A DNA stretch of 64,000 nucleotides from Streptomyces sp. 840.1 (GTDB lineage: Bacteria > Actinomycetota > Actinomycetes > Streptomycetales > Streptomycetaceae), in NCBI RefSeq assembly GCF_003751445.1, contig NZ_RJUU01000001.1, positions 4,345,001 through 4,409,000 of the forward strand. Reading direction: 5' to 3'. This document shows, piece after piece, positions 36,396 through 62,983 of this stretch (position 1 is the stretch's first letter; the number at the start of each line of letters is the position of its first letter). The notes beneath the pieces are model-generated. The model saw only the letters and a list, made by a program, of their open reading frames with translations, had not been told where the DNA came from and searched no databases. Both the position numbers and the translations under genes were made by a program.

Positions 36396-36430
36396 GCTGT
36401 CACGGATGGAGCGTCATCCGCCGTGACAGC
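36396..36430. terminator. Hairpin spanning the ends of two convergent genes
   Basis: GCTGTCACGG (36396-36405) pairs with CCGTGACAGC (36421-36430), and GGATG/CATCC can pair inside. It covers the stop codon of the leftward sulfotransferase and lies 16 bp past the adenylation gene. Confidence 0.65.
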
Positions 36431-37137
36431 AGCTTCTCGTAGAACGGCAGGTGGAACCGCAGGTACTCCGCGAGTGTCTCGTCGTTGTCCGGGGTGGTCC
36501 CGTACGGGGAGGCCTCCTTGTGGAAGCCGTCCGTCCGGCTGGTCGACTCGTGCCACCGCTGGGTCCTGCGCCACTCCTCGCGCATCCCGGGCTGCCAGGA
36601 CAGGGCCTCTTCCCGGTAGGCGATGCCCACCCCGGCGCAGTACGCGGCGACGGTGTCGGCCGGCCGCTCCATCAGGAGGCCGGAGTCGACGACCACCGGT
36701 TCGCGGCCCGTCGCCTCGACCGCGTCGTAGATCTCGGCCAGCCGGGCGAACCCGATCTCATCGCGTCCCAGCGAGGGATTCAGCGCGAAATGCGAGGCGA
36801 TCGCCTCCCGGGGATGGCGGATGATGAAGGTGTGGGTCGCCTCGGCGAGGAACGCGGAGTCGGCGAGCAGACCGGGGTAGTGGAAGTCCGTGGTGTCCTT
36901 GAAGAAGACCGGGCGCTGCTCGGAGAGCTCCCGCAGCGCCGCGATCAGCTCCGCCTCGCTGTGGGCCCGCAGCGGACCGGCCTCGGCCACCCCGAAGTCG
37001 GCGAGGTGCGAGAAGGGTTCGTGAACCACGAGGAAGTCGCCCCGCTCGGCCATCATGCGCATGAAGGCCGTCGACCGGCAGCGCGGTGCGCTCCACAGGG
37101 CGAGGATCCGGGGGCCGTTCTGCTCCGGCAGATGCAC
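36400..37137 (-). CDS. PAPS-dependent sulfotransferase
   Basis: A 245-residue sulfotransferase. The N-terminal SAPRCRSTAFMRMM loop binds the 5'-phosphosulfate of PAPS, and IIRHPREAIASHFALNPS carries the Arg and Ser that bind the 3'-phosphate. It should sulfate a hydroxyl group. In vazabitide and azinomycin biosynthesis a sulfate ester on the diamino-dihydroxyheptanoate unit is the leaving group for aziridine closure, so this is the probable installer. The GTG start has AGGAG six bases upstream. The gene begins three bases after the NRPS C-PCP-C stop and is in one operon with it. Confidence 0.85.
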   Translation of the reverse strand: MHLPEQNGPRILALWSAPRCRSTAFMRMMAERGDFLVVHEPFSHLADFGVAEAGPLRAHSEAELIAALRELSEQRPVFFKDTTDFHYPGLLADSAFLAEATHTFIIRHPREAIASHFALNPSLGRDEIGFARLAEIYDAVEATGREPVVVDSGLLMERPADTVAAYCAGVGIAYREEALSWQPGMREEWRRTQRWHESTSRTDGFHKEASPYGTTPDNDETLAEYLRFHLPFYEKLLSRRMTLHP

Positions 37138-37140
37138 AGT

Positions 37141-40100
37141 TCACTCCTGTGAGCGAGGTCGGATGTCGAGCCGGGAGACCGGCGTGTGCGGTTCGGCCGT
37201 CACCTCGGTGAGCAGCTCCACCACGTGATCGATGTGCCGCAGACCTGTCTCCCGCTCCCACAGGCCGGTGTTGATCTCCAGCATGACCAGGAAGGCGTCC
37301 TCGCGGATGACTCCGTGGAACGACAGCTCGTACCGGGCGGTGCCGTGGGAGAGGAGCTCGTAGCGGGACGCGCAGCCGTTCAGGTCGAGCGGCATCCAGT
37401 CGGCGAGCTGCAGCTCGCAGGTGACCTGGTAGAGCGGATGACGATCGGCCTGCCGGTCCGGCCGGACCGCGTCGAGGATGTCGGCGAACGGCAGCCGCTG
37501 ATGGTCGTAGGACAGCAGCAGACTCGTGCTCACCCGGTCCAGCAGCTCACCGAATGCGGGGTCGCCCGAGCAGTCCACACGCACCGGGACGACGTTGAGG
37601 AAGCAGCCCATCAGCTGCTCGGATCCCCTCCTGGAGCGGTTCTCCGTGGGCACGCCGACCACGAAATCGCTCTGCCCGCTCAGCCGGTGCAGCAGGACGA
37701 CGACCGTGGTGAGGAAGACGGTATAGGCGGTCACCCGGTGTTCCCGGGCCAGCCTGCTCATGGCCTCCGCCAGTTCCCTGGACACACGTCGTTCCAGGAA
37801 CTCGCCCTCGTGGGTGGGCCGCGGGGGGCGTGGCCGGTCGGTGGGAAGGCAGAGCTCCGGCGCGCCGGCCAGCGTTCCCCTCCAGAACCGGCGCAGCCGG
37901 TCGCCCTCCGGGCTCGCCAGCAACTCCTGCTCACCCGCAGCCAGTTCCGCGAAGTCGAGGGCGAGCTCGTCCAGCCGTACCGCGCCCTGCCCGGTCCGCG
38001 CGTTGTAGAACGCGGAGAGCTCGCGCATGAAGACCGTCATCGAGACCTCGTCGGTGACGAGGTGGTGGAACAGCAGATGCAGTACGTGCTCCTGCTCGCC
38101 CAGGCGTACCAGGCGCGCGCGCAGCAGGGGCTCGCTCGTGATGTCGAAGCCCCCGTACGCGGTCTCCTCCTCCAGGGCGCGGCTCTGCTTGCGGAGGGTC
38201 TGCGGCGGCAGGTGGCTCAGGTCGGTCATGGGGACGTCGAATCCGAGGAACGGCGCGATGCGCTGCATGGGTTCGCCGTCGATCTCCACGAACGTGCCGC
38301 GCAGCCCGGCCTGCCGGGCGACGATGTCACCGACCGCGGCGCGCAGCGCGTCGCTGTCCAAGGGGCCGTCGAGGCGCAGCAGCAGGGGGATGGTGTGGGT
38401 GAGGAGCCCCGGGTTCACCTGCTCGGCCAGCCAGAGCTGCTGCTGCGCGGAGAGCAGCGGAACGAGCCGCTCGCCCGAGTCCTGGCGGGGCGCCGGGGCC
38501 GGTCTCCCGGCGGCCTCGCTCTCCGGAGCCGGGTCCGGGTCCGGCTCCGAGGCGACAAGGCGCAGTACGTCGTCCAGATGCGGATACCGGCGCCGCAGTT
38601 CCGTCGTGAGCATGCCGGGCGTCGGGTTCTCGAACAGGACCCGGATCCCCATCTCCGCGTCGAGGCTCTCGCTCACGTTCGCCACCAGGCGAGCGGCGAG
38701 CATCGAGTGTCCGCCGATGGCGAAGAAGTCGTCATCGGCGGACACCGCCCGCAGCTCCATGGTCTCCGCCCAGAGTTCGCACACCACGGACAGCAGGGCG
38801 TCGTCGCCGGTGCGGACGGGCGCCGGGGCGCCGTGCGTCACGAACTCGGCGCCGGAGACCAGGTGCACGGCGCCGGCCGGGCTCAGACGCGCGGTGAGGC
38901 CCGTCGGGACGATGCGGCCCTCGTGGACGACGGACAGCGGGGCGGGTGTGTAGGCGGACAGCGGATGGGCTCCGTCGCCGAGCACCAGCCGGCCGGGGCC
39001 GGGTGCGAGCACGACCGGCCATTCCCGGGGCAGCGCGGTGAGATCCACGGCCAGCACCGTGTCCGTGCCGGGCAGGGGGAGCATACGGATGACGCGCTGC
39101 CCGGGTCTCTCCCGCAGCCGTGCGAGTTCGGTGTCGGGGATCGCGCTGTCCACGACGGTCAGGGCGCCGGACCCTGGCTTTCCGCCGGTGGCGCTCAGGG
39201 CCGCCCTGAGGGGTGCCCCCGCCTCGTGGGCCGCACGGCGTACGTCGTCGCCGGGGCCGGAGGCGAACGCGAGCCCCGACAGGGGCTCCCGGGGCGCGTC
39301 GAGCAGTGCCCCGAGGAGGAGCTCGTAGTCCCTCATCAGCTCGGCGATGCCCTGCTCGGTGTAGATCGCGGTGTCGTACTCGATCCAGGCCGCGGTCACC
39401 TCCGCGGTGGCCTCGAACTCGACGATGGTGTCGAACCGGCCCCGTCCCCGGTGGACTTCGACCGGTTCGGCGGGAAGTCCGCCGAACGAGGTGGTGCCCA
39501 GTGCGTCGAGCCGGGGGAGGAAGAGGTGCTGGATGAGCGGGGTCCGGCTGGGATCGCGGGCGGGCCTCGCCAGGGCGAGGATGCGGCTCAGCGCCAGCCG
39601 TTCGTGGTCCACGGCGCTCGCCACGGTGTTCCCGCAGCGTTCGGTCAGCACCTCGAAGGAGGGATCGCCGCCCACGTCGAGGCGCAGGGGCAGCGTGTTC
39701 GCGAACTGGCCGACGAGATCTGCCGTTCCCGGGGCGGACCGGTTCGCCGCGAGGACGCCGAGGACGAAGTCGCGGGCCCCGGTGGATTTGTTGACCAGTG
39801 CGGCGAAGCCGGCCAGCGACACGGTGTAGGCCGTGGTGCGGTGTTCGCGGGCGAAGGCCAGCAGCCTGGGGCCGAGGGCCTGGGCGAACCGGAACTCGCT
39901 GCGGCGCCCCTCGGTGCCCTTCAGCGCGGGGCGGGGGCGGTCGGTCCGCAGGTCGAGCGCGCTGGGGACGCCCGCGAGGGTCTCCCGCCAGAACTCCCCG
40001 TCGGTCCGCTCCGCGACCGGGAGCAGCACCTCGCGCTCCCACCGCGCGAAGTCCGTGTACTGCAGGCCGGGTTCCGGCACGGGGGAGGCGACCCCGGCGA

Positions 40101-40584
40101 GTGCCGCCGCGTAGTCCCGGCTCAGCTCGTCCACGATGACACGGACGGCGGTGATGTCGGCGATCACGTGGTGGACGGAGAGGACGAGGACGTGGCTGTC
40201 CTCGGTGAGCTTCACCACCAGGAGACCGAACAGCGGACCCGTCGCCACGTCGACAGGGGCCGCGGCGAACGCACGCGTCGCGGCGTGCATCGCCGGCTCC
40301 CGCCCGCCGGCCGGTTCCGCGCTCAGGTCGAGCCAGGTCAGTGGGGGTGCGGCGGGGACGGGCGGCACACGAAGGACCGGTTCGCCGTCCGAGTCGGCCA
40401 CCGTGCTGCGCAGAATCTCGTGCCGGGCTATCAGCGCGGATACCGCGTGGGTGAGAGCGGACGGAGAGAGCGCGCCCCTGATCCGCATAGCGGTGCATTC
40501 ATTCTGGGCCGCGCCGGAACCACCGGCGTTGAGAAAGTGCTGTTGGATAGGAGCGAGCGGCACACCGGATATCTTCCCCTGCAT
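37141..40584 (-). CDS. NRPS: C, adenylation remnant, PCP, C
   Basis: A 1147-residue protein. The first condensation domain has HHVIADI at 138-144, with Ile in place of the final Gly. About 160 residues follow that have no A1-A6 motif. Late in this stretch ARLSPAGAVHLVSG recalls a worn A7 motif, suggesting an adenylation domain reduced to a stub. The PCP is FFAIGGHSMLAARL (Ser627). A second condensation domain has HHLVTDEVS at 840-848, with Glu in place of Gly. The PCP must therefore be loaded from another protein. I start at ATG 40584, next to LAPIQQHFLN; GTG at 40605, with GGAAGG upstream, is an alternative. It forms an operon with the sulfotransferase. Confidence 0.92.
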   Translation of the reverse strand: MQGKISGVPLAPIQQHFLNAGGSGAAQNECTAMRIRGALSPSALTHAVSALIARHEILRSTVADSDGEPVLRVPPVPAAPPLTWLDLSAEPAGGREPAMHAATRAFAAAPVDVATGPLFGLLVVKLTEDSHVLVLSVHHVIADITAVRVIVDELSRDYAAALAGVASPVPEPGLQYTDFARWEREVLLPVAERTDGEFWRETLAGVPSALDLRTDRPRPALKGTEGRRSEFRFAQALGPRLLAFAREHRTTAYTVSLAGFAALVNKSTGARDFVLGVLAANRSAPGTADLVGQFANTLPLRLDVGGDPSFEVLTERCGNTVASAVDHERLALSRILALARPARDPSRTPLIQHLFLPRLDALGTTSFGGLPAEPVEVHRGRGRFDTIVEFEATAEVTAAWIEYDTAIYTEQGIAELMRDYELLLGALLDAPREPLSGLAFASGPGDDVRRAAHEAGAPLRAALSATGGKPGSGALTVVDSAIPDTELARLRERPGQRVIRMLPLPGTDTVLAVDLTALPREWPVVLAPGPGRLVLGDGAHPLSAYTPAPLSVVHEGRIVPTGLTARLSPAGAVHLVSGAEFVTHGAPAPVRTGDDALLSVVCELWAETMELRAVSADDDFFAIGGHSMLAARLVANVSESLDAEMGIRVLFENPTPGMLTTELRRRYPHLDDVLRLVASEPDPDPAPESEAAGRPAPAPRQDSGERLVPLLSAQQQLWLAEQVNPGLLTHTIPLLLRLDGPLDSDALRAAVGDIVARQAGLRGTFVEIDGEPMQRIAPFLGFDVPMTDLSHLPPQTLRKQSRALEEETAYGGFDITSEPLLRARLVRLGEQEHVLHLLFHHLVTDEVSMTVFMRELSAFYNARTGQGAVRLDELALDFAELAAGEQELLASPEGDRLRRFWRGTLAGAPELCLPTDRPRPPRPTHEGEFLERRVSRELAEAMSRLAREHRVTAYTVFLTTVVVLLHRLSGQSDFVVGVPTENRSRRGSEQLMGCFLNVVPVRVDCSGDPAFGELLDRVSTSLLLSYDHQRLPFADILDAVRPDRQADRHPLYQVTCELQLADWMPLDLNGCASRYELLSHGTARYELSFHGVIREDAFLVMLEINTGLWERETGLRHIDHVVELLTEVTAEPHTPVSRLDIRPRSQE

Positions 40585-40732
40585 ATGTCCCCCATCAAGG
40601 CTCACTACAACGTGCCTTCCCAGTAGGTTAGTTGACGGAACGCGGCAGTGGCAGTGGGTGCCGTACTTCGCTACGATCGCATCGGTCGCGTGCATGCCGC
40701 GGATAGTTGACGGAAATGGGCGGGAAGAGCCG
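40585..40732. promoter_or_regulatory. Divergent promoter region with a repeated 12-mer
   Basis: TAGTTGACGGAA occurs at 40629-40640 and again at 40704-40715, both on the plus strand 75 bp apart. The stretch lies between the leftward C-PCP-C NRPS and the rightward thioesterase genes. Each copy contains a TTGACG -35-like hexamer, but neither has a convincing -10 at 17 bp. The repeat may be a regulator site rather than a core promoter. Confidence 0.45.
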
Positions 40733-41461
40733 GTGACGATGTCGAGATTGTTCCTCAAATTGCCTTCGGAAGAAGCGGAATTCCGTCTGTTCTGCTTCCC
40801 GTACTCGGGTTGTGGCGCTTCGATGTACGTGAAGTGGCCGGACCGGATCGGTCCGGTCGAGGTCGTGCCGCTCCAGCTTCCCGGCCGGGAGAACCGGATG
40901 CGGGAGCCGCACTACGGGACCTACGAAGAGCTCGCAGTCGACGTGGTCGACGGGCTGGCGCAGTATCTGGACCGGCCGTACGGGGTGTTCGGGCACTGCG
41001 GCGGGGCGCTCCCCGCCTTCGAGGCCGTGCTGCGCATACAGGAACTCGGGCTTCGCCCGCCGTCGCGCTGTTTCGTCTCCTCCCAGGTCGCACCGCAGGA
41101 CGGCCCGCACGGCCGGTTCCTCGGCCTGTCCGACGACGGTCTGCGGGCCGAACTGTCCGGCCTGTTCGCCGAGCTCGGATCGGCCGAGCCGCCCGCGGAG
41201 ATGATCGACATGTTCCTCGAGGTGATGACCGCCGACCTGGAGGCGAACAGGCGGTACGTGAAGCCGGCGGCGGGACGCGCTCCCTGCCCGCTCACCGTGG
41301 TGGGCTGGGACCGTGACCAGGAAGTGCCGCACGAGCTGATGGGCGGCTGGGAGCGGTGGGCCGAGGCCGACAAGATCGTCCTCCCCGGCACGCACTACAC
41401 CTTCCTCGGCGCACCGGCGGAGTTGATGGAGCGCCTGCGCTCCGACCTGGTGGGCGGCTGA
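40733..41461 (+). CDS. Type II thioesterase with cysteine nucleophile
   Basis: A 242-residue alpha/beta hydrolase of the NRPS/PKS type II thioesterase family. It opens FCFPYSGCGASMYVKWP and has VPLQLPGRENRM, as these enzymes do. The nucleophile elbow is GHCGG, with Cys89 in the Ser position; the His of PGTHYTFLG completes the triad. Type II thioesterases normally remove stalled acyl groups from carriers. A Cys nucleophile often goes with acyl transfer or difficult ring-forming release, so an editing or transfer role are both possible. GTG at 40733 has GGAAG five bases upstream; ATG at 40739 is the alternative. Confidence 0.85.
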   Translation: MTMSRLFLKLPSEEAEFRLFCFPYSGCGASMYVKWPDRIGPVEVVPLQLPGRENRMREPHYGTYEELAVDVVDGLAQYLDRPYGVFGHCGGALPAFEAVLRIQELGLRPPSRCFVSSQVAPQDGPHGRFLGLSDDGLRAELSGLFAELGSAEPPAEMIDMFLEVMTADLEANRRYVKPAAGRAPCPLTVVGWDRDQEVPHELMGGWERWAEADKIVLPGTHYTFLGAPAELMERLRSDLVGG

Positions 41462-41470: not shown

Positions 41471-42505
41471 TCATTCGGCCAGGCCGGGAGCCGGGCTCGA
41501 AGCGGCGAGATGCGCCTCTCCCGCCTCCCTCCAGAGCCGGGGGGCCGTGCCCATCCGGCTTCCCTCCACGGAGGCGATCCGGTAGGCCGTCGCCACGGTC
41601 GAATGCGCCAGCATGCCTCGTACTCCGTGCAGTTGAATCGCCAGCCGGGTGCACCGGAGGACATGCTCGGTCGCCGCCGCGAGCACCTGTGCGGCGTGGG
41701 CCGCGCAGTCCCGGCCGAGGTCGTGCCGCCAGGCCGCCTCGTGCAGCAGAAGCCGCCAGCCGTCCGCCGCCCCGACCAGCTGGGCGAGCCGGTGGGCGAC
41801 CGTCTGGAGCTCCACCAGCGGCCGCCCGAACTGAATACGGCGGTTGACGTGGCCGCGCGCGGTATCGACGGCCCGGTCGGCGACGCCCAGGAGGAGCGCC
41901 GCCTGCCTGATGCGCGCCGCGTCAAGGCTCCGCCGCAGCTGCCCGTCATCCGGGGTGGCCGGCGCCGCGGGGGCGCCGGAGAACTGCAGGCGCCGGCCCG
42001 GCAGGCCGAGCAGTGCGCTCCCGCGCGAGCTGGAGGTGCCGGGGTCCGGGCGCACGACGTACCAGCGGTGGTCCCCGCCCTGGGCCACCGCGCGGACCAC
42101 CGCGAGGCTCACCTCGCAGTCCGGCAGGTACTCGCTCTCGCCCCAGAGCCTGTTCTCGTCGTCGGCGCGCAGGGTCGGCGCGCAGTGCACACCGATCGTG
42201 ACCGCGTGAGCGGTGCCTTTGATGACCTGCTTGACCAGGGAGTCCGGCAGCCGGTCGGCTGCCGCGAGTTCAAGGGCCAGCATGGTCTCCCGGTGGGCGG
42301 CCAGCGGCACGAGGCCGCGCCCGAGCTGCACGTTGACGATGATGTCCGCGCTGAGCCCGAGTCCGAACCCGCCGAGCCGCTCCGGAAGGCTGAGTTCGGG
42401 CACCCCGATCGCCGCGAGCTCGGCCTGGACGTCGCTCGTCCTGCTGAGAGCGGCGTCCACGGCGTCGGCGAGCTGGACCTGAAAGGGGTCCATCTGAAGA
42501 TCCAC
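41471..42505 (-). CDS. Acyl-CoA dehydrogenase-like flavoprotein, short subunit
   Basis: A 344-residue protein of the acyl-CoA dehydrogenase fold, shorter than the usual 380-400. FAD-binding helices are supported by VNRRIQFGRPLVELQTVAHRL and IQLHGVRGMLAHS. The middle beta domain is short and the N-terminal domain is reduced. It starts at GTG 42505, behind AGGGGG, three bases after a second full-length dehydrogenase gene. Such adjacent long/short pairs form heteromeric enzymes in actinobacterial sterol degradation. Here the pair could desaturate a carrier-bound aminoacyl group. Confidence 0.8.
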   Translation of the reverse strand: MDLQMDPFQVQLADAVDAALSRTSDVQAELAAIGVPELSLPERLGGFGLGLSADIIVNVQLGRGLVPLAAHRETMLALELAAADRLPDSLVKQVIKGTAHAVTIGVHCAPTLRADDENRLWGESEYLPDCEVSLAVVRAVAQGGDHRWYVVRPDPGTSSSRGSALLGLPGRRLQFSGAPAAPATPDDGQLRRSLDAARIRQAALLLGVADRAVDTARGHVNRRIQFGRPLVELQTVAHRLAQLVGAADGWRLLLHEAAWRHDLGRDCAAHAAQVLAAATEHVLRCTRLAIQLHGVRGMLAHSTVATAYRIASVEGSRMGTAPRLWREAGEAHLAASSPAPGLAE

Positions 42506-42508: not shown

Positions 42509-43684
42509 CTATCCCCCTGTCTCCACGTCCTCGAGCAACCGGGCACCTGTGACGATGTCGAGCAGGACTTCCGAGGCGCCGCCCGAGACCGTGAGTCCTG
42601 GAGCCTCGCGATAGGCCGCCTCGAGCGCGGACCCACCGGTCTCGAAGCCGGACTCGATGACCTGGGTACCCAGGGTGTCGAGTGCCCACCAGGAGATGGC
42701 CTGGGCGGTCTCACTGCAGTGCCACTTGGCCAGGGAGGCATCGCTGATGTCGGGCCGGTCCTCCTGCAGATGCTGCATGGCGCGGCAGGTCAGGAGCCGG
42801 CTCGCGTCGAGCCGTGCCCGGTGTTTCGCGAATTCCGCGACATCCGCGCCCCGCGTTTCACCCGGCACCCCGTCGTGAGCGGTGAGGCTCCGCGCCGCGA
42901 GGCCGAGCCAGTGCCCGGCCCTGGCGTAGTAGTCGAGTCCACTGCGTTCCGCGGCGAACATCCGGGTGATGAGTGACCATCCTTGCCCTGCGGCTCCGAA
43001 GAGTGCCTCGGGCCCGACACTCACGTCCACCAGCGCGATGTCGTGGAACTGCTCGTCGGCAAGGCTGGGAAGGGGACGTACGGAGACCCCGGCCGTGCTC
43101 ATGGGGACGAGGAACAGGCTGATCCCCTGGTACCGGCTCTCGCTCACGTCCGTCCGGACGGCGCACAGGGCGATGTCGGCGTAGGCGCTCTTCAGGTTGT
43201 AGGTCTTGCGCCCGTTGAGGACCCAGCCTTCGCCGCCCGGTCCCGGAGCGGCGCGGGTGGTGACGCTCGCCAGGTCGGAGCCGTGTTCCGGTTCGGTGAA
43301 GAGGATGCACGCCGTGAGGTCCCCGGAGGCGAGCCGCGGCAGGAGTGTGCGTTTCTGCTCCTCGGTGCCCGACTGGAGGATCAGGGAGCCGACGATCTGC
43401 ACGGAGATGTAGTAGAGGCTCTGGGGTATGCCGTGTCTGACCAGCTCTTCCAGCAGTACGACGGTCTCGGTGAAGTCTCCGTCCCTGCCTCCGTATTCCG
43501 CCGGCCACGACGGAGCGAGAATACCCTCGCGCCCGAGATGACGATAGAGCTCGCGGACGTCGCCGTCCATACCGTCGTTCCTCTGGTGTACCGCGTGCAG
43601 CAGGCGACGGGTTTCTGTGGCCGACAGGGTGGATTTGAGCTCTTGTCTGAAGTCAACGGTTCTGTTAGGGACGCCGAAATCCAT
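42509..43684 (-). CDS. Acyl-CoA dehydrogenase-like flavoprotein, full-length subunit
   Basis: A 391-residue acyl-CoA dehydrogenase. Flavin and substrate motifs include ILAPSWPAEYGGRDGD, CILFTEPEHGSDLASVTT and VLNGRKTYNLKSAYAD. The C-terminal LTVSGGASEVLLDIV covers the region near the FAD adenosine. It probably acts with the following short subunit. In this cluster the acyl group is more likely bound to a PCP than to CoA, as for the prolyl-PCP oxidases such as PltE. The ATG at 43684 has AAGGA seven bases upstream. The operon is divergent from the C-A-PCP gene. Confidence 0.88.
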   Translation of the reverse strand: MDFGVPNRTVDFRQELKSTLSATETRRLLHAVHQRNDGMDGDVRELYRHLGREGILAPSWPAEYGGRDGDFTETVVLLEELVRHGIPQSLYYISVQIVGSLILQSGTEEQKRTLLPRLASGDLTACILFTEPEHGSDLASVTTRAAPGPGGEGWVLNGRKTYNLKSAYADIALCAVRTDVSESRYQGISLFLVPMSTAGVSVRPLPSLADEQFHDIALVDVSVGPEALFGAAGQGWSLITRMFAAERSGLDYYARAGHWLGLAARSLTAHDGVPGETRGADVAEFAKHRARLDASRLLTCRAMQHLQEDRPDISDASLAKWHCSETAQAISWWALDTLGTQVIESGFETGGSALEAAYREAPGLTVSGGASEVLLDIVTGARLLEDVETGG

Positions 43685-55122: not shown

Positions 55123-55901
55123 GAGGGATTCCGCGCTTCCAGGCTCGCGTACGCGCGTTTGAGCAACTCCGGCCGCAGTGTCACGTAGTGGCTCGCCGTC
55201 TTCCCCTGCAGGAAGGACACCCCTCGCCCCTTCAGCGTCCGCGCGATCACCGCGACGGGACGCTCGCCGGGACGGCGCAGCGCCGTGCGCAGGGCGTCCA
55301 CATCGTGTCCGTCGACCGTCCGCGTCTCCCAGCCGAATGCCTCGAACCTCGGAGCGAGGGGCTCAAGGCCCACGCAGTCCTCGGTGGACCCGGTGATCTG
55401 GAGACGGTTGCGGTCGATGACCGCGACGAGGCCGTTCAACCGCTGGTGCCCGGCGAACATCGCCGCCTCCCAGACCGTCCCCTCCTGCAACTCGCCGTCA
55501 CCGAGCAGCAGATAGACGCGGCCGGAGCCGCCGGAGAACCGCTCGGCCAGGGCCAGTCCCGAGGCCAGGCTCAGTCCGTGTCCGAGTGAGCCGGTGGGGA
55601 ACTCGACACCGGGAAGCCCGCGGGGCGGATGCCCGAAGAGCCGGCTTCCCGGTGTCGCGTATCGGGTCAGCTCCTCCGGGTCGAGCAGTCCGGTGGCGGC
55701 GAGAGCGGCGTAGAGCGCGGGTGCGGCATGGCCCTTGCTGAGGATGAAGGCGTCCCGCTCGCCCAGGACTTCGCCGTACAGCACGGCGAGGATGTCCGCG
55801 CAGGAGAGGCTGCCGCCCAGGTGCGCGCCCTGCGGACCCGCGGCCATTCCCACGATGTCGCGACGCAGCCGGTGGGCGAGTTCCACGAGGTGGCGTGTCA
55901 T
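55119..55901 (-). CDS. Transketolase, N-terminal subunit
   Basis: A 260-residue ThDP-binding subunit. GAHLGGSLSCADILAVLYGE and ILSKGHAAPALYAALA are the N-terminal transketolase signatures. LLGDGELQEGTVWEAAMFAG is the diphosphate/Mg site (GDG...N-type motif), followed by VIDRNRLQITGSTE. It needs the downstream C-terminal subunit to form an active site. Starts and stops overlap with both neighbouring genes, so aminotransferase, N- and C-subunits are made together. Confidence 0.95.
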   Translation of the reverse strand: MTRHLVELAHRLRRDIVGMAAGPQGAHLGGSLSCADILAVLYGEVLGERDAFILSKGHAAPALYAALAATGLLDPEELTRYATPGSRLFGHPPRGLPGVEFPTGSLGHGLSLASGLALAERFSGGSGRVYLLLGDGELQEGTVWEAAMFAGHQRLNGLVAVIDRNRLQITGSTEDCVGLEPLAPRFEAFGWETRTVDGHDVDALRTALRRPGERPVAVIARTLKGRGVSFLQGKTASHYVTLRPELLKRAYASLEARNPS

Positions 55902-57199
55902 CGGGCACCGTCCGGGAAGTGCCGGCGCCAGTCGTCGCCGGTCTGCGCCCGAGCGATGTCGCGGACCAGGCCGAGGTGCTCCCAGGCCTTCTCGAAACCC
56001 CGCGCGTACAGGGGGAGTACGTCCGCGGCCGCCGGATTGAGGTGGCGCCGCTGCAGACAGAGCGAGCCGTCGATGACCCGGCAGGACGACGGGAACCGGT
56101 CGGCGATGTCCTCGTACGACAGGCCGGCGGGGCGGAAGGCCGGGTGCGCGGGCAGCGGAGCCACCTGGTACTGGGAGACAGGCACCCCTTCGGCCCTGAG
56201 TACGCGGTGCAGGGCCCGGCGGACCGAGGCGGGCGCGATGCCCGCCATGTCCATCTCCTCGGGCACGAGCAGGAGCCGGATGATGTGCCAGGCGTGCGAG
56301 CGGTCCTCGGGTACCTGGGGAACCCGGAGTCCGGGCAGCGCCGCGAGCCTGCCGAGCAGGGCGGTGACTGCCAGGTCCCGGTCCTTCGAGTAGGCCGGAA
56401 GACGAGTCAGCTGCGAACGCGTGAAGGCTGCTTGTACCGGCCCGAGCCGGGCGTTGCCGCCCGCACGGTGCGCGATGTAGGTCCGGGTGCCGGCCGGTGC
56501 GCGCTCGCCGAAGTTCCGCAGCGCGAGCGCGGCCTCGTGCAGCGGACCGGAGTCGGTGGTGATCAGTCCGCCTTCCCCGCAGGTCGGCAGGTTCTTGCTC
56601 GGGTGGAGGCTGAAGCCACCGAGCAGGCCGAGCGCTCCGGTTCTCCGGCCCCGGTAGGTGGCGCCGTGCGCCTGCGCGGCGTCCTCGACGACTGCCAGCC
56701 CGCCGGCCCCGGCCGTGGAGGCCAGCTCGTCCATGTCGGCCGGCAGACCGTGCAGATGGACGGGCAGGAGCGCCGCGGTCCGCTCTGTCAGCACCTCGGA
56801 CGCCCGCTTCGGATCCAGCGTGTAGGTGTCGGGATCGATGTCGGCGAACACCGGTGTGGCGTTGCACTGCACCACCGCGTGGGCGGTCGCGTTCATGGTC
56901 AGCGCGGGGACGACGACCTCGTCGCCGGGGCCGATGCCGAGCGCGCCGAGCGCGACCCGCAGGGCCGCGGTTCCCGAGCTGACGGCCACGCAGTGGGCCA
57001 CTCCGACGTGTTCGGCCCATTCCCGCTCCAGCGCCGGGACCTCGCTCTCCCCGGCCGCTGTCGCCGTCAGCCGGCCACCGCGCAGCACGCGGGACACGGC
57101 CTGCTCGTCCCCGGGCGTGACGACCGGCCAGAGCGTCGCGGCCGACGTGGTGCCGGAGGGGACGGCCGGTGTTCCCCCGAGCATGGCGAGCTTGCCCAT
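55898..57199 (-). CDS. DegT/DnrJ/EryC1-family PLP aminotransferase
   Basis: A 433-residue fold-type I aminotransferase. VVVPALTMNATAHAVVQCN, VVEDAAQAHGATYRGRRTG and the Schiff-base Lys in FSLHPSKNLPTCGEGGL are the family landmarks. It should aminate the ketone formed by the transketolase, as Vzb9 does in vazabitide biosynthesis, setting the 6-amino group that becomes the aziridine nitrogen. The start and the stop of the BtrH-like gene overlap by one base (TGATG). Confidence 0.94.
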   Translation of the reverse strand: MGKLAMLGGTPAVPSGTTSAATLWPVVTPGDEQAVSRVLRGGRLTATAAGESEVPALEREWAEHVGVAHCVAVSSGTAALRVALGALGIGPGDEVVVPALTMNATAHAVVQCNATPVFADIDPDTYTLDPKRASEVLTERTAALLPVHLHGLPADMDELASTAGAGGLAVVEDAAQAHGATYRGRRTGALGLLGGFSLHPSKNLPTCGEGGLITTDSGPLHEAALALRNFGERAPAGTRTYIAHRAGGNARLGPVQAAFTRSQLTRLPAYSKDRDLAVTALLGRLAALPGLRVPQVPEDRSHAWHIIRLLLVPEEMDMAGIAPASVRRALHRVLRAEGVPVSQYQVAPLPAHPAFRPAGLSYEDIADRFPSSCRVIDGSLCLQRRHLNPAAADVLPLYARGFEKAWEHLGLVRDIARAQTGDDWRRHFPDGAR

Positions 57200-58227
57200 C
57201 AGGTCTCCTCCGGCTTGTCTTCCCAGTGCGTGAGTACGTCCTCGAGGCGCTGGAGGCACTGTTCCCAGTGCACCAGCAGCCGCCGTCCCAGGGCTGCCAC
57301 CCGGTGCTCGGCGGGGAAGTCCGCGACGGCTCCGTGTGCCGCGCCGACGCGCAGCCCCGTCCAGCTGTGCGCCACCAGGTCGACCCACCGGGCGGCCTCC
57401 ACGAGGTCGGGCCGCTCGAAGTGCAGCCCCGCCCGGGTGAGAAAGGTGCTGTGCAGGCTCGCTTCGGCCTGGGCCGGCCAGCCGAGGACGTAGATCTCCT
57501 GGAGGGCCCGCACGCCCTCGCGACGGATCCGTCCGGGCAGTTCGTCGAGCAGGCGCACGAGGACGGCCGGGCCCCCGGCCGCGGCGGCGTCGCGCATCGA
57601 GGCCACGTTGTCCGTCAGTACCTCGCGCAGCCAGGGCAGCGAGGGCAGGGGCTGCGGCCCGGTGGTGCGCACCTCCAGCCAGCGCCAGGACGGTGAACTG
57701 CCCGCGAAGAACGGGTCGCTCGTGTCATCGACCGCCAGGCGGTGGCGTGCCTCGTCGAGGACGGAGCGTGGGAGGTCTCCGCGGTGGGCGGGCGGCATGG
57801 GGTCGGCGATCCGGTAGACGTCCCGCTCCGGGTCGTACGCCGTGACCACGATGAGGTGGGCCGCGTGGACGTCGTGGTAGGCGGGCCGGAAGGGCAGGTG
57901 GTAGTTGTTCACCGCGACCACGGGCGGAACGCCGCGCGCGAGGGAGGCGACCACGTCGTGGTGGGCAGCGGCGGCGTCGCGAGGACTGTGCCAGCGGAGC
58001 GATACCGGATGGTGCAGGCAAAAATACTCTTCGACGCGGTCGCCGGCCGGATGGAAGTATTCCACGGATTCGACCGGGCCCGTCGGTGCGCAAAAACGCC
58101 AGCCGGCGCCGAGCGCCTGGACAGGATCCCACCCCGCCCGCTCGAGTACGTAACCGATATCTGTCTGCAGACAACTGCTCAGATCGTCGTACCAGGAAAC
58201 AAAAGAGCCCCCTGCCGGGGCGGTCAC
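57199..58227 (-). CDS. BtrH-like protein, candidate subunit of aziridine-forming enzyme
   Basis: A 342-residue protein from GTG 58227, which overlaps the upstream stop (GTGA) and has GGAGA seven bases before it. The N-terminal half resembles the BtrH_N domain: DLSSCLQTDIGYVLERAGWD, a Gly/Arg-rich ALGAGWRFC, then AHLIVVTAYDPERDVYRIAD with a possible His/Asp pair. BtrH itself transfers an acyl group from a carrier to an amine. In the vazabitide and azinomycin clusters the gene pair beside transketolase and aminotransferase (Vzb10/11, AziU3/U2) closes the aziridine by sulfate loss. Position and co-translation with the next small protein make this the probable counterpart; sequence identity was not tested. 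Confidence 0.7.
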   Translation of the reverse strand: MTAPAGGSFVSWYDDLSSCLQTDIGYVLERAGWDPVQALGAGWRFCAPTGPVESVEYFHPAGDRVEEYFCLHHPVSLRWHSPRDAAAAHHDVVASLARGVPPVVAVNNYHLPFRPAYHDVHAAHLIVVTAYDPERDVYRIADPMPPAHRGDLPRSVLDEARHRLAVDDTSDPFFAGSSPSWRWLEVRTTGPQPLPSLPWLREVLTDNVASMRDAAAAGGPAVLVRLLDELPGRIRREGVRALQEIYVLGWPAQAEASLHSTFLTRAGLHFERPDLVEAARWVDLVAHSWTGLRVGAAHGAVADFPAEHRVAALGRRLLVHWEQCLQRLEDVLTHWEDKPEET

Positions 58228-58808
58228 CGAACGGTCTCCATGGTGAGGGCGAATATATGCAGGGCCGGGTTGTCGGGCAGCCGGAGCGCCCGTACCGGCT
58301 CTCTTCGCGTCACGGGTATCCGAACTGCCCATAATTGCCCGGAGAGGTTGCCCTGGCGATGGTGCGGATAGTGCATCGAGGGTGATGTCGCCGCGAGGGA
58401 TTCACCGAAGTGCGCCCGCGCCGGCCAGAAATCGGAGACCCTGATCCATTCAGGGTCGACGGCGCCGGAGGAATAATGGATGTGGACGGTCTCCTCGCAG
58501 CGCCGCTCTGCGGCCGTCAATAGATGGAGCCAGTCCGCTTTGCTCTCGGGAAGCTTTAGATACTGGGCGTCGCAGCGGATGTTGTCCGGCTCGGAGTCGA
58601 CTTCGTTGAAGGTTTCGAAGGGGACCCCATCCACCGAGAGACGGCCGGAAGGGATGGTTTCGAATTGCAAACTGTTCCCCCAAACGTTTAGCCGGCCGTC
58701 GCCCAGGTTCTGCATCGCGGTAAGGGCGACGTTGTTGAGATGCGGTGCCAGATCGACCGCTGCCATGGTGTGGACACGTGACGTCTCTACGGGCAGAAAG
58801 TGGCTCAC
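58224..58808 (-). CDS. Unrecognised 194-residue protein, likely partner of the BtrH-like protein
   Basis: A 194-residue soluble protein with no family I recognise. It appears beta-rich. Notable stretches are GRLNVWGNSLQFETIP, FETFNEVDSEPDNIRCDAQY and SMHYPHHRQGNLSGQLWAV. There is no signal peptide or membrane segment. It starts at GTG 58808 with GAGGG seven bases upstream, opens the leftward operon and overlaps the BtrH-like gene, implying a two-protein complex. By position it corresponds to the smaller subunit of the Vzb10/11 or AziU3/U2 aziridine-forming enzyme, described as having a new fold. Codon 159 is TTA. Confidence 0.75.
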   Translation of the reverse strand: MSHFLPVETSRVHTMAAVDLAPHLNNVALTAMQNLGDGRLNVWGNSLQFETIPSGRLSVDGVPFETFNEVDSEPDNIRCDAQYLKLPESKADWLHLLTAAERRCEETVHIHYSSGAVDPEWIRVSDFWPARAHFGESLAATSPSMHYPHHRQGNLSGQLWAVRIPVTRREPVRALRLPDNPALHIFALTMETVR

Positions 58809-58997: not shown

Positions 58998-59174
58998 ATG
59001 GCTGGGTCAGTCAGTGAATGCCCTGAGTGTCACGCGACTATTACTGCCGACGCGGACGTGATGATCGCGGAGATCATTGACTGCGTGGATTGTTCCGCAG
59101 GACTCGAGGTGGTGTCCGCGGACCCGCTCATCCTCGCTCTGGCTCCCGAGGCCGAAGAGGACTGGGGAGAATAA
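58998..59174 (+). CDS. lysW: LysW-like amino-group carrier protein (AmCP)
   Basis: A 58-residue acidic protein. It has the LysW zinc-ribbon pairs CPEC (8-11) and CVDC (29-32), an acidic middle and the diagnostic C-terminus EDWGE. In LysW the side-chain carboxyl of the last Glu is joined to the amino group of the substrate, which both protects it and hands it to the enzymes. ATG at 58998 is preceded by GGGAGGGG. Followed by LysX-, LysY-, LysZ- and LysK-like genes, it is the scaffold of the pathway. The separate lysine or arginine biosynthesis LysW context is absent here, since Streptomyces makes lysine by the diaminopimelate route. Confidence 0.95.
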   Translation: MAGSVSECPECHATITADADVMIAEIIDCVDCSAGLEVVSADPLILALAPEAEEDWGE

Positions 59175-59204: not shown

Positions 59205-60074
59205 ATGACGGGGGACGGGGGGCGAGTGCTGTCGTCGTATCCAGTAGTGCTGATTGCCACGCGTATCCGTACTGAGGAACGCATGTTGCTCGAAGCGTTC
59301 CGGCGCAGGGCGGTGCCCTGCGTACATGTGGACGACCGCTCTCTGGTCTACCGGGTGGGTGGACCGCCGCCCAAATGGCGTGCTGTTCTCAACCGTGCTA
59401 TTTCAGCGACCAGAAGGCTCGAAGTAAGCAGACTGTACGAGGCGTTGGGCATCTCGGTGTTCAACTCGCTTGCAACAATGACTTGTTGTAGCAGCAAGAT
59501 AGCCGGTTCCCTCGCGCTGCACCATGCCGGACTGCCGGCCCCCGCGACCGCGATCGCTCTCGATGCCGCCGCCGGCGGTGCGGCGGTCGCCGAAGTCGGG
59601 TTCCCCGCAGTGCTCAAGCCCGTCGTCGGTTCCTGGGGGAGAGGCCTTGCCAAGGTCAATGACACCGATGCGGCCGAGGCCGTCATCGGCCTGCGGGACC
59701 AGATGCCCTCGCCGGTGCAGAAACTCGTCTACGCCCAGGAGTTCGTGCGCGGACGCGACATCAGGGTGCTGGTCGTCGGTGGCCGGGCGGTCGCCGCGAT
59801 CGAACGGGCCGGCGAGCACTGGGTGCGCAACACCGCCCGGGGCGGGCAGCCGCGGGCCTGCGTGCTGGACCCCGGGCTCACCGAGCTCGCAGAACGCGCC
59901 GCGGAGGCGGTGGGGGGCGGCATCCTCGGCGTCGACCTCCTCGAGACGGACCAGGGGGACCGGTTCGTGATCGAAGTCAACGGCGGGGTGGAGTTCCACG
60001 GTCTCGCGGCCGCGCATCCAGGGATCCCGGTCGCCGACGTGATGATCGACTACGTATTGGGCGGGACTTCATGA
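59205..60074 (+). CDS. lysX: LysX-like ATP-grasp ligase for the AmCP
   Basis: A 289-residue RimK-type ATP-grasp enzyme. It has IRTEERMLLEAFRRR near the start, the ATP-binding FPAVLKPVVGSWGRGLAKV and the metal site VIEVNGGVEFHGL. It should form an isopeptide between the C-terminal Glu of the carrier and the amino group of an amino acid, probably glutamate. GTG at 59226 is an alternative start. TMTCCSSKIAGSLALHHAG is the central linker; the double Cys is unusual. The stop overlaps the LysY start (ATGA). Confidence 0.93.
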   Translation: MTGDGGRVLSSYPVVLIATRIRTEERMLLEAFRRRAVPCVHVDDRSLVYRVGGPPPKWRAVLNRAISATRRLEVSRLYEALGISVFNSLATMTCCSSKIAGSLALHHAGLPAPATAIALDAAAGGAAVAEVGFPAVLKPVVGSWGRGLAKVNDTDAAEAVIGLRDQMPSPVQKLVYAQEFVRGRDIRVLVVGGRAVAAIERAGEHWVRNTARGGQPRACVLDPGLTELAERAAEAVGGGILGVDLLETDQGDRFVIEVNGGVEFHGLAAAHPGIPVADVMIDYVLGGTS

Positions 60075-61051
60075 AGGTTTCGGTCATAGGCGCATCCGGC
60101 TATGTCGGTGGCGAACTCGTGCGGCTGGCTCTGGGGCACCCGGAGCTCGATCTCGTCCAGGTGACGTCACGACGCCACGCGGGCGGCGTGCTGGGAGCCG
60201 TGCACCCCAACCTCCGGCACCACACGGACATCACTTTCACGGAGCCCGGCCGCCTCGAAACGGTCGATGTCCTCTTCGCCTCCTTGCCCAAGGGTGAGTC
60301 CCTGTCCCTGCACTCCCAGTTATCGCGGGCCGCGCCCCTGCTCGTGGACCTGGGGCAGGATTTCAGGGACCCGGGAAGGAGCACGGAAGCGCCCTTCGTG
60401 CCGGGACTCCCGGAGCTGTACAGGGCCGATCTGGTCGGCGCGGACCGGATCAGTGTCCCCGGCTGCATGGCGACGGCGGCCACCCTGGCCATCAAGCCCC
60501 TGGCGGAGGCGGGGCTGGTGGCGGGAGACGTCATCGTCGACGCCCGCACGGGATCCAGCGGCGCGGGAGCGGCACCGGGGGCGGCGACCCACCACGCGGA
60601 GAGACAGCACGCCTTGCGTGTGTACGGGGCGGCCGGACACCGGCACGAACGGGAGATCAGCCGGATGTGCGGGGTCCGGGCGCGGATGACCGTGACCGCC
60701 GTGCCCCTCGTCAGGGGCGTTCAGATCATCGCGCACGTACGACCGCCCCGGCCGGTGTCGCGCGCCGAGATCTGGCAGACGTACCGCCGGTGCTACGACG
60801 GCGAACCGTTCGTCCGGCTCGTGGCCCGGCGGGCGGGACTGCACCGGCTGCCGGAGCCGCAGTTCCTGACCGGGAGCAACTTCACGGACATCGGCTTCGA
60901 CGTCGATGACGACGGTGAGCGCGTCGTCGTCGTCGCGGCGCTGGACAATCTCGTCAAGGGCGCCGCCGGGGGAGCTGTCCAGAGCATGAACGTCGCGGCG
61001 GGAATCCCCGAACGCACCGGAGTGGACTTTCCCGGATTGCACCCGGTGTAG
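60071..61051 (+). CDS. lysY: LysY/ArgC-like semialdehyde dehydrogenase on the AmCP
   Basis: A 326-residue N-acetyl-gamma-glutamyl-phosphate-reductase family enzyme. The Rossmann motif is VIGASGYVGGELVRLA, the catalytic Cys lies in VPGCMATAATLAIKPL, and TGSNFTDIGF and NLVKGAAGGAVQSMN are typical late motifs. It should reduce the carrier-bound glutamyl phosphate to the semialdehyde, the acceptor for transketolase. Codon 84 is TTA. The gene is coupled to lysX by ATGA. Confidence 0.94.
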   Translation: MKVSVIGASGYVGGELVRLALGHPELDLVQVTSRRHAGGVLGAVHPNLRHHTDITFTEPGRLETVDVLFASLPKGESLSLHSQLSRAAPLLVDLGQDFRDPGRSTEAPFVPGLPELYRADLVGADRISVPGCMATAATLAIKPLAEAGLVAGDVIVDARTGSSGAGAAPGAATHHAERQHALRVYGAAGHRHEREISRMCGVRARMTVTAVPLVRGVQIIAHVRPPRPVSRAEIWQTYRRCYDGEPFVRLVARRAGLHRLPEPQFLTGSNFTDIGFDVDDDGERVVVVAALDNLVKGAAGGAVQSMNVAAGIPERTGVDFPGLHPV

Positions 61052-61064
61052 GCCGGTGGAATCC

Positions 61065-61886
61065 ATGGACGGCGTACTGGTGGTGAAGCTCGGCGGGGGC
61101 CTGGACCCCGGCCGGGCGCTCGACAACGTCGCGGCTCTGCGCGGCGCGGGTACCGATGTGGTCCTCGTACACGGCGGCGGAGCCGAAGCCGACCTGCTCG
61201 CCGGGCAGTTGGGACATCCCGTGCAGACCATCGAGGCAGCCGACGGCACCCGCAGCAGACGAACGGACGACACGGCGCTCGACGTCCTGGCCATGGCGCT
61301 CCTCGGCCGGGTCAAACCCGCACTCGTCGGCGGCCTGCGGGCGCGAGGCGTGATCGCGGCCGGACTGTGCGGCGCGGACGGCGCGCTGCTGACGGCCGAA
61401 CGCAAGACGGCGATCAGGAGCCGGGAGAACGGCAGGGTCCGGCTGATCCGCGACGACAGGGCGGGCCGTGTCACACACGTCGCCCCGGCCATCCTGCGCG
61501 CCCTGCTCGCCGGCGGCCTCGTCCCCGTGGTGTCCCCGCCGGCGGCCGACGAAGGGGGGCGACTGCTCAACGTGGACGCCGACCAGGTCGCGGCGGCCAT
61601 CGCCACGGCACTGGGCGCCCACGCGCTCGTCCTCCTCACCGATGTCCCCGGAGTACTGAGCGACCCGCCGGACCCCGCGTCGCTCATCGCCCGGCTCGAC
61701 TGCTCCGGCCCCGGACCGGCCGCCGTGAGCGGCCGGATGCGGCACAAGGTGCGCGCCGCGGTCCGGGCCCGGCTGGCCGGCGTCCGGCACGTGGCCATCG
61801 GCCACGGCGGCATCGACGGGCCGGTGGACGCGGCACTCAACGGCGTGGGCACCGTCGTCGTGGGAACACAGCAGGTGGGCACGTGA
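61065..61886 (+). CDS. lysZ: LysZ/ArgB-like amino acid kinase on the AmCP
   Basis: A 273-residue amino acid kinase. VVKLGGGLDPG and VLVHGGGAEADLLAGQLG are the phosphate-binding glycines. LLNVDADQVAAAIA and LTDVPGVL form the nucleotide site, and SGRMRHKVRAAV contains the conserved Lys. It should phosphorylate the free carboxylate of the carrier-bound amino acid. I prefer ATG at 61065, preceded by GGTGGA, over GTG at 61056. The stop overlaps the deacylase start (GTGA). Confidence 0.93.
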   Translation: MDGVLVVKLGGGLDPGRALDNVAALRGAGTDVVLVHGGGAEADLLAGQLGHPVQTIEAADGTRSRRTDDTALDVLAMALLGRVKPALVGGLRARGVIAAGLCGADGALLTAERKTAIRSRENGRVRLIRDDRAGRVTHVAPAILRALLAGGLVPVVSPPAADEGGRLLNVDADQVAAAIATALGAHALVLLTDVPGVLSDPPDPASLIARLDCSGPGPAAVSGRMRHKVRAAVRARLAGVRHVAIGHGGIDGPVDAALNGVGTVVVGTQQVGT

Positions 61887-62983
61887 CTCCTCCGGCCGAG
61901 CACCTCACATGGCTCCTCAGATCGATGCTGTCCATCCCGTCCGTCTCCGGGCACGAGGGCCGGCTGGCCGCCTTCCTCGCCGAGCAGATGGAACACCTCG
62001 GGATGGACACCCACATCGACGCGGCCGGAAACGTGCACGGCGCCGCGGGACCCGTCGGTGCGCCGACGGTGCTGCTGCTCGGGCACATCGACACGGTCCC
62101 GGGGGCCGTCCCCGTCTGCCGTGTGGGAGACCTGCTCTACGGCCGGGGCGCGGTCGACGCGAAGGGGCCGATGGCCGCCCTGATCACGGCCGCGGCTCGG
62201 GCGACGAACGTACGCGCGGTGGTGGTCGGCGCCGTGGGGGAGGAGGTGCCGGGCTCCCGTGGCGCCCGGCACCTGCTGCGCACGCTGGCACCGCCCGACG
62301 CGGTGGTGATCGGCGAGCCGAGCGGCTGGGACGGCGTCTGCCTGGGGTACAAGGGCAGGGTCGGAGTGGAGTACGAGGTCACCAGGCCGCCCCTGCACAC
62401 CAGCAGCCCGGAGCCCACAGCCGTCGAGGCCGCCGTCGCCTTCTGCTCACTCGCGAAGGACTACCTGCGGGCCCAGTACGGGTCGGCGGACTCCATCGCG
62501 TTCGACGCCGCGTCGGGAACCGTGGTGAGCCTGCGCGGGGACCTGAGCCGTGCCGAGGCGTTACTCACCTGCCGGGTGCCCCTCGGATTCGACTTCGACG
62601 CGTTCGAGCGGCATCTGCGCCGGCACAGCGACGGCACGGTGGAGTTCGACGAGAGGGTCGCCGCGGTGCGCCGGCCGAGAAGCGATCCGGTGGCGCGGGC
62701 GATGCGCGCGGCCATCATGCTGCAGGGTGGCGACCCCGTCCTGAAACTGAAGGCCGGCACCTCGGACATGAACGTGGCCGACCGCTGGGGGGTGCCGATG
62801 GTCGCCTACGGGCCGGGCGACGCCCATCTGGACCACACGAGCGACGAGCACATCGTGCTGCCGGAGCTGCACCGGTCGGTCGCCGTTCTCGACACGGCAC
62901 TCTCCCGGCTGGCCACGCTGCTGAAGAAGCGGGCGGCGGATGCCACCCGGCCGAGAGAAGTGCTTTCCAGCGGTACGGGATGA
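61883..62983 (+). CDS. lysK: LysK-like M20 metallopeptidase releasing product from the AmCP
   Basis: A 366-residue M20-family zinc hydrolase. LLLGHIDTVPG gives the first zinc His and Asp, GRGAVDAKGPMAAL the bridging Asp, VGEEVPGSRG the catalytic Glu pair and LDHTSDEHIVLPELH the final His. It should cut the isopeptide that links the finished diamino acid to the carrier protein. Codon 227 is TTA, marking the operon as bldA-dependent. It follows lysZ with a GTGA overlap. Confidence 0.93.
   Translation: MTPPAEHLTWLLRSMLSIPSVSGHEGRLAAFLAEQMEHLGMDTHIDAAGNVHGAAGPVGAPTVLLLGHIDTVPGAVPVCRVGDLLYGRGAVDAKGPMAALITAAARATNVRAVVVGAVGEEVPGSRGARHLLRTLAPPDAVVIGEPSGWDGVCLGYKGRVGVEYEVTRPPLHTSSPEPTAVEAAVAFCSLAKDYLRAQYGSADSIAFDAASGTVVSLRGDLSRAEALLTCRVPLGFDFDAFERHLRRHSDGTVEFDERVAAVRRPRSDPVARAMRAAIMLQGGDPVLKLKAGTSDMNVADRWGVPMVAYGPGDAHLDHTSDEHIVLPELHRSVAVLDTALSRLATLLKKRAADATRPREVLSSGTG

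Follow-up and report, generated by a model that had tools for sequence, protein, structure and literature searches.

What product should be expected from a gene cluster that closely resembles those for azinomycin, a DNA-damaging antitumour compound, and lacks two features of that family? The question is raised by a locus of Streptomyces sp. 840.1, a strain whose 8.84 Mb genome is assembled in four contigs. The window, meaning the whole 64,000-nucleotide stretch of DNA that was analysed, is C1:4345001-4409000 (C1 being contig NZ_RJUU01000001.1), and the cluster extends from about 25.3 kb of the window to C1:4422125, roughly 13 kb beyond the window end. From its sequence, we consider it fairly probable that this is an azinomycin-type cluster making an aziridine-bearing azinomycin relative with one further residue, likely 4-methylproline, and that the chain is released by a thioesterase (TE). 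It is not the azinomycin cluster proper: a reductase domain and the glycosylase AlkZ, both features of the family, are absent, and because these two features fail it is best described as a variant of the azinomycin type.

The first part of the answer lies in the genes for the amino-group carrier protein (AmCP) route. Identities were obtained from Pfam, NCBIfam and PDB sequence searches, and genes were called from codon-position GC, so start codons are approximate. A first-pass annotation of the window had seen LysW, LysX, LysY, LysZ and LysK homologues in one operon, and the Pfam and NCBIfam searches bear this out, with its coordinates. On the plus strand lie a LysW-type carrier protein (58998..59174; PF21344; TIGR01206 56.3 bits, cut-off 53.2; C-terminus EDWGE), a LysX-type ligase (59205..60074; PF22626/PF08443; TIGR02144 235.8 bits, under the cut-off of 275.6), a LysY/ArgC-type reductase (60071..61051; TIGR01850 292.6, cut-off 233.6), a LysZ-type kinase (61056..61886; NF010659 226.1, cut-off 223) and a LysK-type hydrolase (61883..62983; NF003367 358.6, slightly under the cut-off of 363; TIGR01902 269.8, cut-off 163.1). 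Divergent from this operon (58998-62983) is a minus-strand run in which the split transketolase and DegT aminotransferase described in the annotation carry the matching Pfam domains: a transketolase N half (55119..55901; PF00456), its C half (54139..55122; PF02779/PF02780) and a DegT-type aminotransferase (55898..57199; PF01041, 1.2e-85). What had been left as a ‘BtrH-like/unknown’ unit is homologous to the AziU3/AziU2 aziridine-forming pair. The AziU3 homologue (57199..58227, minus strand; BtrH_N) matches PDB 7wuw_C (E 1.5e-56) and 8gs1_B, with 131/307 residues identical (43%), and the AziU2 homologue (58224..58808, minus strand) matches 7wuw_A (E 8.3e-43) and 8gs1_A, with 73/179 identical (41%). 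A lack of homology between the pair at 58.2-58.8 kb and AziU3/U2 would have spoken against the annotation; the homology found favours it. There is also a free-standing carrier protein (53898..54185, minus strand; PF00550). Further away is a sulfotransferase (36400..37137, minus strand; PF19798), the predicted activator of the hydroxyl displaced on aziridine closure; this gene and the surrounding set of nonribosomal peptide synthetases (NRPSs), recognized by their Pfam domains, had also been reported correctly. The gene set for an AmCP route plus aziridine closure is therefore present, and its homologies suggest the corresponding chemistry. According to part of the published account, this combination is common to the vazabitide A (vzb) and ficellomycin clusters (PMC9570651).

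The NRPS and polyketide synthase (PKS) genes can be used to narrow the cluster type further. Between the window and C1:4422125 lie a C-A-T2 NRPS, an A-T didomain, an MbtH protein, an iterative PKS, a cytochrome P450 and an O-methyltransferase, the PKS being an iterative-type protein of 1786 residues with the order KS-AT-DH-KR-ACP. For comparison, five relatives were taken gene by gene, together with two more regions and four 20 kb loci. The AziU3 of Streptomyces violens is identical to PDB Azi29/AziU3 at 238/296 positions (80%), and its cluster was therefore used as the azinomycin-type reference; in contrast, the AziU3 relative of S. omiyaensis, from a locus without the PKS, scores 224 bits to PDB AziU3 against 539 bits. 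The PKS, P450 and O-methyltransferase are 62, 57 and 59% identical to their S. violens counterparts. Full-length PKS matches (62-69%) were found in 8 of the 11 genomes searched, and none in those of S. kebangsaanensis, S. filamentosus and strain NRRL F-6492. A C-A-T protein (43883..47188, plus strand; Pfam), which likely activates the azabicycle amino acid, has the code DVFDFGGVT, identical in this cluster, S. violens, S. flavidovirens, S. plumbidurans and S. filamentosus. The eight-position A-T code GIHFTGSC is identical in this cluster, S. violens and S. flavidovirens, with the variants GIHFTGTC in S. plumbidurans and GTAFIGGF in S. filamentosus. The C-A-T2 protein starts within the window (63848..64000, on to L009:7256, plus strand; Pfam); its code, DFWSVGMVH, we take to be threonine-like, as we do the corresponding code in all five clusters read. 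Because the A codes and the PKS match, we predict that the product has its cap, warhead and threonine in common with azinomycin. By these sequences the cluster is of an azinomycin type with a PKS cap outside the window, and so larger than, and beyond what was covered by, the first-pass annotation.

The remaining core genes are also those of the azinomycin type. A C-T-C NRPS (37141..40587, start approximate, minus strand; Pfam) has the AziA2 architecture and is 46% identical to its S. violens and 52% to its S. plumbidurans counterpart; aziA2 itself is given as C-PCP-C in part of the original description (PMC3778384). An A-KR-T module (47955..51800, plus strand), without the usual Asp and of the keto-acid type by Pfam and code, is predicted to form the hydroxy acid from which the epoxide arises. 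The set also has two acyl-CoA dehydrogenase-like genes (41471..42505, PF00441, and 42509..43684, PF02770/PF02771, both minus strand), a cytochrome P450 (52610..53932, minus strand; PF00067) and a short-chain dehydrogenase (SDR; 62994..63812, plus strand; PF13561), whose counterparts are 69-83% identical in seven of the eight relatives with a match and 32% in NRRL F-6492, where the contig is cut. There are also three PF00975 thioesterases, a (40823..41461, plus strand), b (47185..47958, plus strand) and c (51849..52613, minus strand); the GxSxG pattern is present in c (GHSMG), and none is seen in a (40823-41461) or b (47185-47958).

It is at the end of the chain that the cluster departs from its reference. 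The threonine module of S. plumbidurans ends in a reductase domain, PF07993, and homologues of this domain occur in Nocardiopsis alkaliphila, S. violens, S. flavidovirens and three of the four partial azinomycin-type loci; all four better-covered relatives with the naphthoate cap have one. No frame of the present cluster contains it, the sole match being 37 residues (E 0.006) at 11.8 kb into the window, outside the cluster. A frameshift as the reason for the loss is ruled out, as no frame of the cluster holds the domain. A reductase homologue was likewise not found in S. filamentosus, S. kebangsaanensis or NRRL F-6492 (in the last, the contig is cut). Present instead is an extra terminal NRPS module with a thioesterase, C-A*-T-TE (31239..34826, plus strand; Pfam). 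In a set comprising this protein and the best 14 of 5591 database matches above threshold, the A3, A4 and A5 motifs and the A10 lysine of A* are lost in 15/15 proteins, and A8 is degenerate. The condensation motif HHVVCDG, the carrier serine and the TE serine motifs of the protein are intact. Its gene is overlapped by four bases by that of a stand-alone adenylation protein (34823..36379, plus strand; PF00501) with the code DVQFIGHA(V), the predicted trans loader of the extra residue. Since the catalytic motifs of A* are lost, C-A*-T-TE presumably depends on charging in trans, for which the A protein encoded next to it would be the obvious partner.

The identity of the extra residue is suggested by the genes upstream. 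A GriE-like L-leucine 5-hydroxylase of the PhyH family (27837..28649, plus strand), the predicted first step to 4-methylproline, matches PDB 5nch at E 2e-94, is identical to it at 138/262 positions (53%) and keeps the iron ligands His110/Asp112/His210. Part of the griselimycin literature identifies GriE as the leucine 5-hydroxylase of griselimycin, gives these same residues (His110, Asp112, His210) as its iron ligands, and describes the formation of 4-methylproline by GriE and GriF with ProC or GriH (PMC5676206). Adjoining the hydroxylase gene is a zinc-dependent alcohol dehydrogenase (28646..29782, plus strand; PF08240/PF00107), predicted to be GriF-like, and on the other side a 2-oxoglutarate (2OG)-Fe(II) oxygenase (26971..27783, plus strand; PF13759/PF13640). 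The likeness to the griselimycin system is thus the hydroxylase with its adjoining dehydrogenase; the difference is that no reductase of the GriH kind was called alongside, that ProC is encoded elsewhere (one proC copy in the host genome, at C1:2809280) and that the genes here stand within an azinomycin-type cluster. GriE-like genes were found in 30/392 genus genomes, at 33 places, of which 30, our own included, are given as loci. A dehydrogenase of 66-73% identity directly adjoins the hydroxylase gene in 18 of the 29 other loci, and in three of the 29 (G303, G089 and G016; L170, L179 and L185) the 2OG oxygenase stands beside the pair as well. All three are NRPS or PKS-NRPS clusters. The three genes together look like a transferable methylproline cassette. 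In G016 the set adjoins an NRPS with the code DIQFAAHA (one of five A domains seen), and one of the six A domains in the NRPS cluster of G303 reads DGQFVSQV. A proline-type substrate fits DVQFIGHA(V), and 4-methylproline is likely the extra residue. The absence of a reductase domain, together with the extra C-A*-T-TE and A proteins and the GriE-like gene, supports the earlier suggestion that the product may not be one of those already known.

Several observations pull the other way and must be weighed here. The A7 motif of A*, TGDLG, is retained in 11/15 proteins. In the PDB, the stand-alone A protein scores highest with LgrA chains (475 bits, to the second A domain), and Tyrocidine synthase 2 follows at 325 bits; we take the LgrA domain to be glycine-activating and the first module of Tyrocidine synthase 2 to be proline-activating. 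The code DVQFIGHA(V) is proline-like, with differences from proline codes at two or three of nine places. At 11 of the 29 other GriE-like loci no such dehydrogenase lies within the 1.5 kb flank, and G089 has an SDR-like gene between oxygenase and hydroxylase and no DxQF-type A domain in the 40 kb read (three A domains seen). Finally, clusters of the S. filamentosus type carry the same tail without a GriE-like gene, so the tail need not carry methylproline. The LgrA matches and the S. filamentosus-type tail leave some room for a tail as proposed, loaded with a different residue, be it plain proline, glycine or, as the 2OG oxygenase next to the GriE-like gene could indicate, a hydroxylated 4-methylproline. 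We nonetheless hold this unlikely, for the GriE-like gene, iron ligands intact, is part of the same gene run as the tail, and at E 1e-40 seven related genomes gave no match to it, the same query finding its match in the host genome. 4-Methylproline is thus kept as the predicted residue.

Whether the tail belongs to the product at all can be judged by comparison with other clusters of the type. Of the 37 proteins listed for this cluster, 29 are core genes whose S. violens counterparts align along most of the protein. Identity is 51-69% for 23 of these; the other six are lower, with AziU2, AziU3, LysX and the sulfotransferase at 41-45%, C-T-C at 46% and the small carrier protein at 48%. Three edge genes (glyoxalase-like, metallophosphoesterase and phosphopantetheinyl transferase) also match. 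The azinomycin-type clusters of S. violens and S. flavidovirens thus share with this one the PKS, P450s, O-methyltransferase, MbtH, major facilitator superfamily (MFS) exporter and SDR; the A-T, C-T-C, C-A-T, A-KR-T and C-A-T2 proteins, dehydrogenases and thioesterases, with the same A codes; and the AmCP genes, transketolase, DegT, carrier, sulfotransferase and AziU2/U3, although against these two species AziU2/U3, LysX and the sulfotransferase reach only 39-45%. Compared with them, the region of this cluster was found to contain no reductase domain, AlkZ, PF01757 acyltransferase or PF10014 oxygenase, nor DinB_2, APS kinase, CysD or CysN genes, and it has the extra C-A*-T-TE, A protein and GriE-like genes. 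Against S. violens, C-A*-T-TE and the A protein align with generic NRPS parts only (36-41%), and the 2OG oxygenase, GriE-like gene and dehydrogenase have no match in the eleven other regions compared.

On such figures, one might regard the locus as merely a diverged azinomycin A/B cluster in which C-A*-T-TE, the A protein and the GriE-like genes are passengers or serve another product, and another enzyme releases the chain. Besides the 29 shared core genes and common A codes, the nearest AziU3 relatives, S. plumbidurans and N. alkaliphila, carry the reductase domain. However, the cluster has no reductase homologue in any frame, its TE-tail genes form one plus-strand run with the exporter and the phosphopantetheinyl transferase, and they recur in S. 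filamentosus, S. kebangsaanensis and NRRL F-6492, likewise without a reductase homologue, which makes this explanation decidedly improbable. S. plumbidurans and N. alkaliphila have the same PKS cap (69 and 65%) and keep the reductase domain and AlkZ; their regions show no TE tail, and their genomes lack a GriE-like gene. S. filamentosus, S. kebangsaanensis and NRRL F-6492 share A*-T-TE (51-52%), the stand-alone A protein (53-54%) and the lack of a reductase homologue, and have no full-length PKS match, no O-methyltransferase match and no GriE-like gene. The tail resembles that of S. filamentosus and the cap that of S. plumbidurans, which suggests that the cluster was put together from several sources. 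In S. filamentosus (L105-L108) and in L165-L168, the azinomycin warhead genes and C-A*-T-TE tail occur without the naphthoate PKS; adjoining in S. filamentosus are an ornithine cyclodeaminase-type gene, an FAD oxidoreductase, a second DegT and two ketosynthase-like genes, because of which a different cap is likely.

Among named genomes 87 AziU3 relatives were found, and the best 80 of them entered a tree of 81 rows. In 6 of these 80 a matching PKS lies within 20 kb; the six, S. violens among them, form one clade (support 100/100), which was taken as the azinomycin-type reference. The AziU3 of this cluster falls with those of S. plumbidurans, N. alkaliphila, S. kebangsaanensis, S. filamentosus and NRRL F-6492 (100/100, with a long-branch warning), S. 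plumbidurans (65%) and N. alkaliphila (62%) being nearest among the named loci. The sulfotransferase behaves differently: in a tree of 50 rows (at least 70% query cover) it groups with AmCP loci not of the azinomycin kind (97/89), apart from a clade (99/98) of S. plumbidurans, N. alkaliphila and the S. filamentosus group, some branches being long. In S. plumbidurans and S. filamentosus the gene stands beside thioesterase c, and here (36400-37137) it stands elsewhere. This grouping and the shifted position point to separate replacement of the sulfotransferase. Beside the S. violens cluster lie genes for an APS kinase and for CysD-like and CysN-like proteins (L104:1057-3817), which would supply 3'-phosphoadenosine 5'-phosphosulfate for sulfation. 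Although the common AmCP genes and this sulfotransferase grouping would suit a vazabitide/ficellomycin-type azabicycle peptide without naphthoate, as the comparison made in the first-pass annotation suggests, the PKS, P450, O-methyltransferase and azinomycin-type A-T code make that product highly improbable; a naphthoate-type PKS cap and the azinomycin NRPS set distinguish this cluster from vzb and ficellomycin as those are described in the literature.

The second missing feature concerns self-resistance. Azinomycins cross-link DNA. In part of the published work, AlkZ of the azinomycin cluster is described as unhooking these cross-links (PMC9040887). An AlkZ homologue was found in all six well-covered relatives (S. 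plumbidurans, N. alkaliphila, S. filamentosus, S. kebangsaanensis, S. violens and S. flavidovirens; Pfam check with PF06224 made on the S. violens protein only) and in two of the four 20 kb loci; it was not seen in NRRL F-6492, where the contig is cut, or in the other two 20 kb loci. In the window, 20 kb to its left and about 56 kb to its right there is none, only three chance-level matches (E 0.011-0.12). L009:15981-17309, considered as a candidate, has no Pfam or PDB match, and the O-methyltransferase lies there on the opposite strand. Across the host genome there are four strong and three weak AlkZ-like places; the closest of the strong ones is about 0.77 Mb away. Three of the four strong genes give local matches of 23-37% to four cluster AlkZ proteins, which are 50-78% alike, and the fourth gives no match to them at E 1e-3. 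Judged by these matches, a moved close copy of the cluster AlkZ is absent from the host genome. Possible substitutes could be the MFS exporter (29902..31203, plus strand; PF07690), with counterparts of 59-72% in seven larger relative regions, and a glyoxalase-like gene (L009:17396-17818), with homologues of 39-43% in the S. violens and S. flavidovirens regions.

Taken together, these genes suggest the following route. By homology and the published azinomycin/vazabitide route, glutamate would be tethered to LysW and converted by LysX, LysZ and LysY to the semialdehyde. The split transketolase would lengthen this by two carbons, DegT would aminate it and LysK would release it from the carrier. 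The sulfotransferase would then sulfate the product, and the AziU3/U2 pair, whose homology is evident, would close the aziridine with displacement of sulfate. The naphthoate cap would come from the PKS, P450, O-methyltransferase and A-T protein, the last with a code as in two azinomycin-type clusters, and the epoxide unit from the A-KR-T module together with the dehydrogenases and a P450. A threonine residue would be added and, because no reductase domain follows the threonine module, the chain would pass to C-A*-T-TE. Leucine could be converted to 4-methylproline by the GriE-like and GriF-like enzymes with housekeeping ProC. As A* is dead by sequence, this residue would be loaded in trans onto the C-A*-T-TE carrier by the neighbouring A protein. 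The TE would finally hydrolyse or cyclise the chain.

The outer parts of the cluster and its distribution complete the picture. Its left edge is a metallophosphoesterase (25314..26210, plus strand; PF00149), a 61% homologue of which edges the S. violens cluster, followed by an Sfp-type 4'-phosphopantetheinyl transferase (26207..26869, plus strand; PF17837/PF01648) with homologues of 42-45% in the S. violens, S. filamentosus, S. kebangsaanensis and NRRL F-6492 regions. Left of the cluster, window positions 11889-19649 hold an ABC transporter permease, a solute-binding protein, a ROK regulator and a GH39 glycosyl hydrolase, an ordinary sugar-uptake region. Elsewhere in the genome, contig C4 has fifteen ketosynthase matches at 12-116 kb and is rich in modular PKS. 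AziU3 relatives occur in 28/392 genus genomes, this one included, with only two others above 50% identity (53-54%), and in 8/61 relatives sampled across the class; AziU2 relatives occur in 31/394 family genomes. One AziU3 relative stands amid actinobacterial relatives on a 4.9 kb contig (L085) labelled Candidatus Melainabacteria, which may be a binning error. The protein databases hold closer kin, namely AziU3 at 90% in Streptomyces sp. NPDC088115, C-T-C at 84% in NPDC092903 and C-A*-T-TE at 91% in NPDC094144, and because of these proteins clusters of this type probably occur in other genomes too.

Azinomycin producers have been reported among S. griseofuscus strains, according to part of one account (PMC8443760). 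A comparison of a contig-C4 PKS locus with plasmids lends no support to placing the present strain in that species: no place covered 80% of the query, the ten listed hits stood at 73-76%, and two further records reached 90-99% over less of the query; part of the cluster likewise had no plasmid match, though very near genomes may be missing from the records. In the open-licence literature no azinomycin relative with a thioesterase tail or methylproline was found. As a tentative broader view, azinomycin-type lines may be modular, with cap, warhead and tail swapped between them, and this one could yield an extended azinomycin in which a naphthoate cap and an aziridine/epoxide warhead are combined with a trans-loaded, TE-released 4-methylproline tail, perhaps hydroxylated, in a host without AlkZ that either protects itself otherwise or makes a product that is less reactive or masked. 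Because this cluster keeps the warhead genes yet differs in its chain end and has no AlkZ, the effect of the tail on activity becomes a testable question. So do the use of a dead A domain with a trans partner as a working terminal module, and the survival of a producer without the usual glycosylase.

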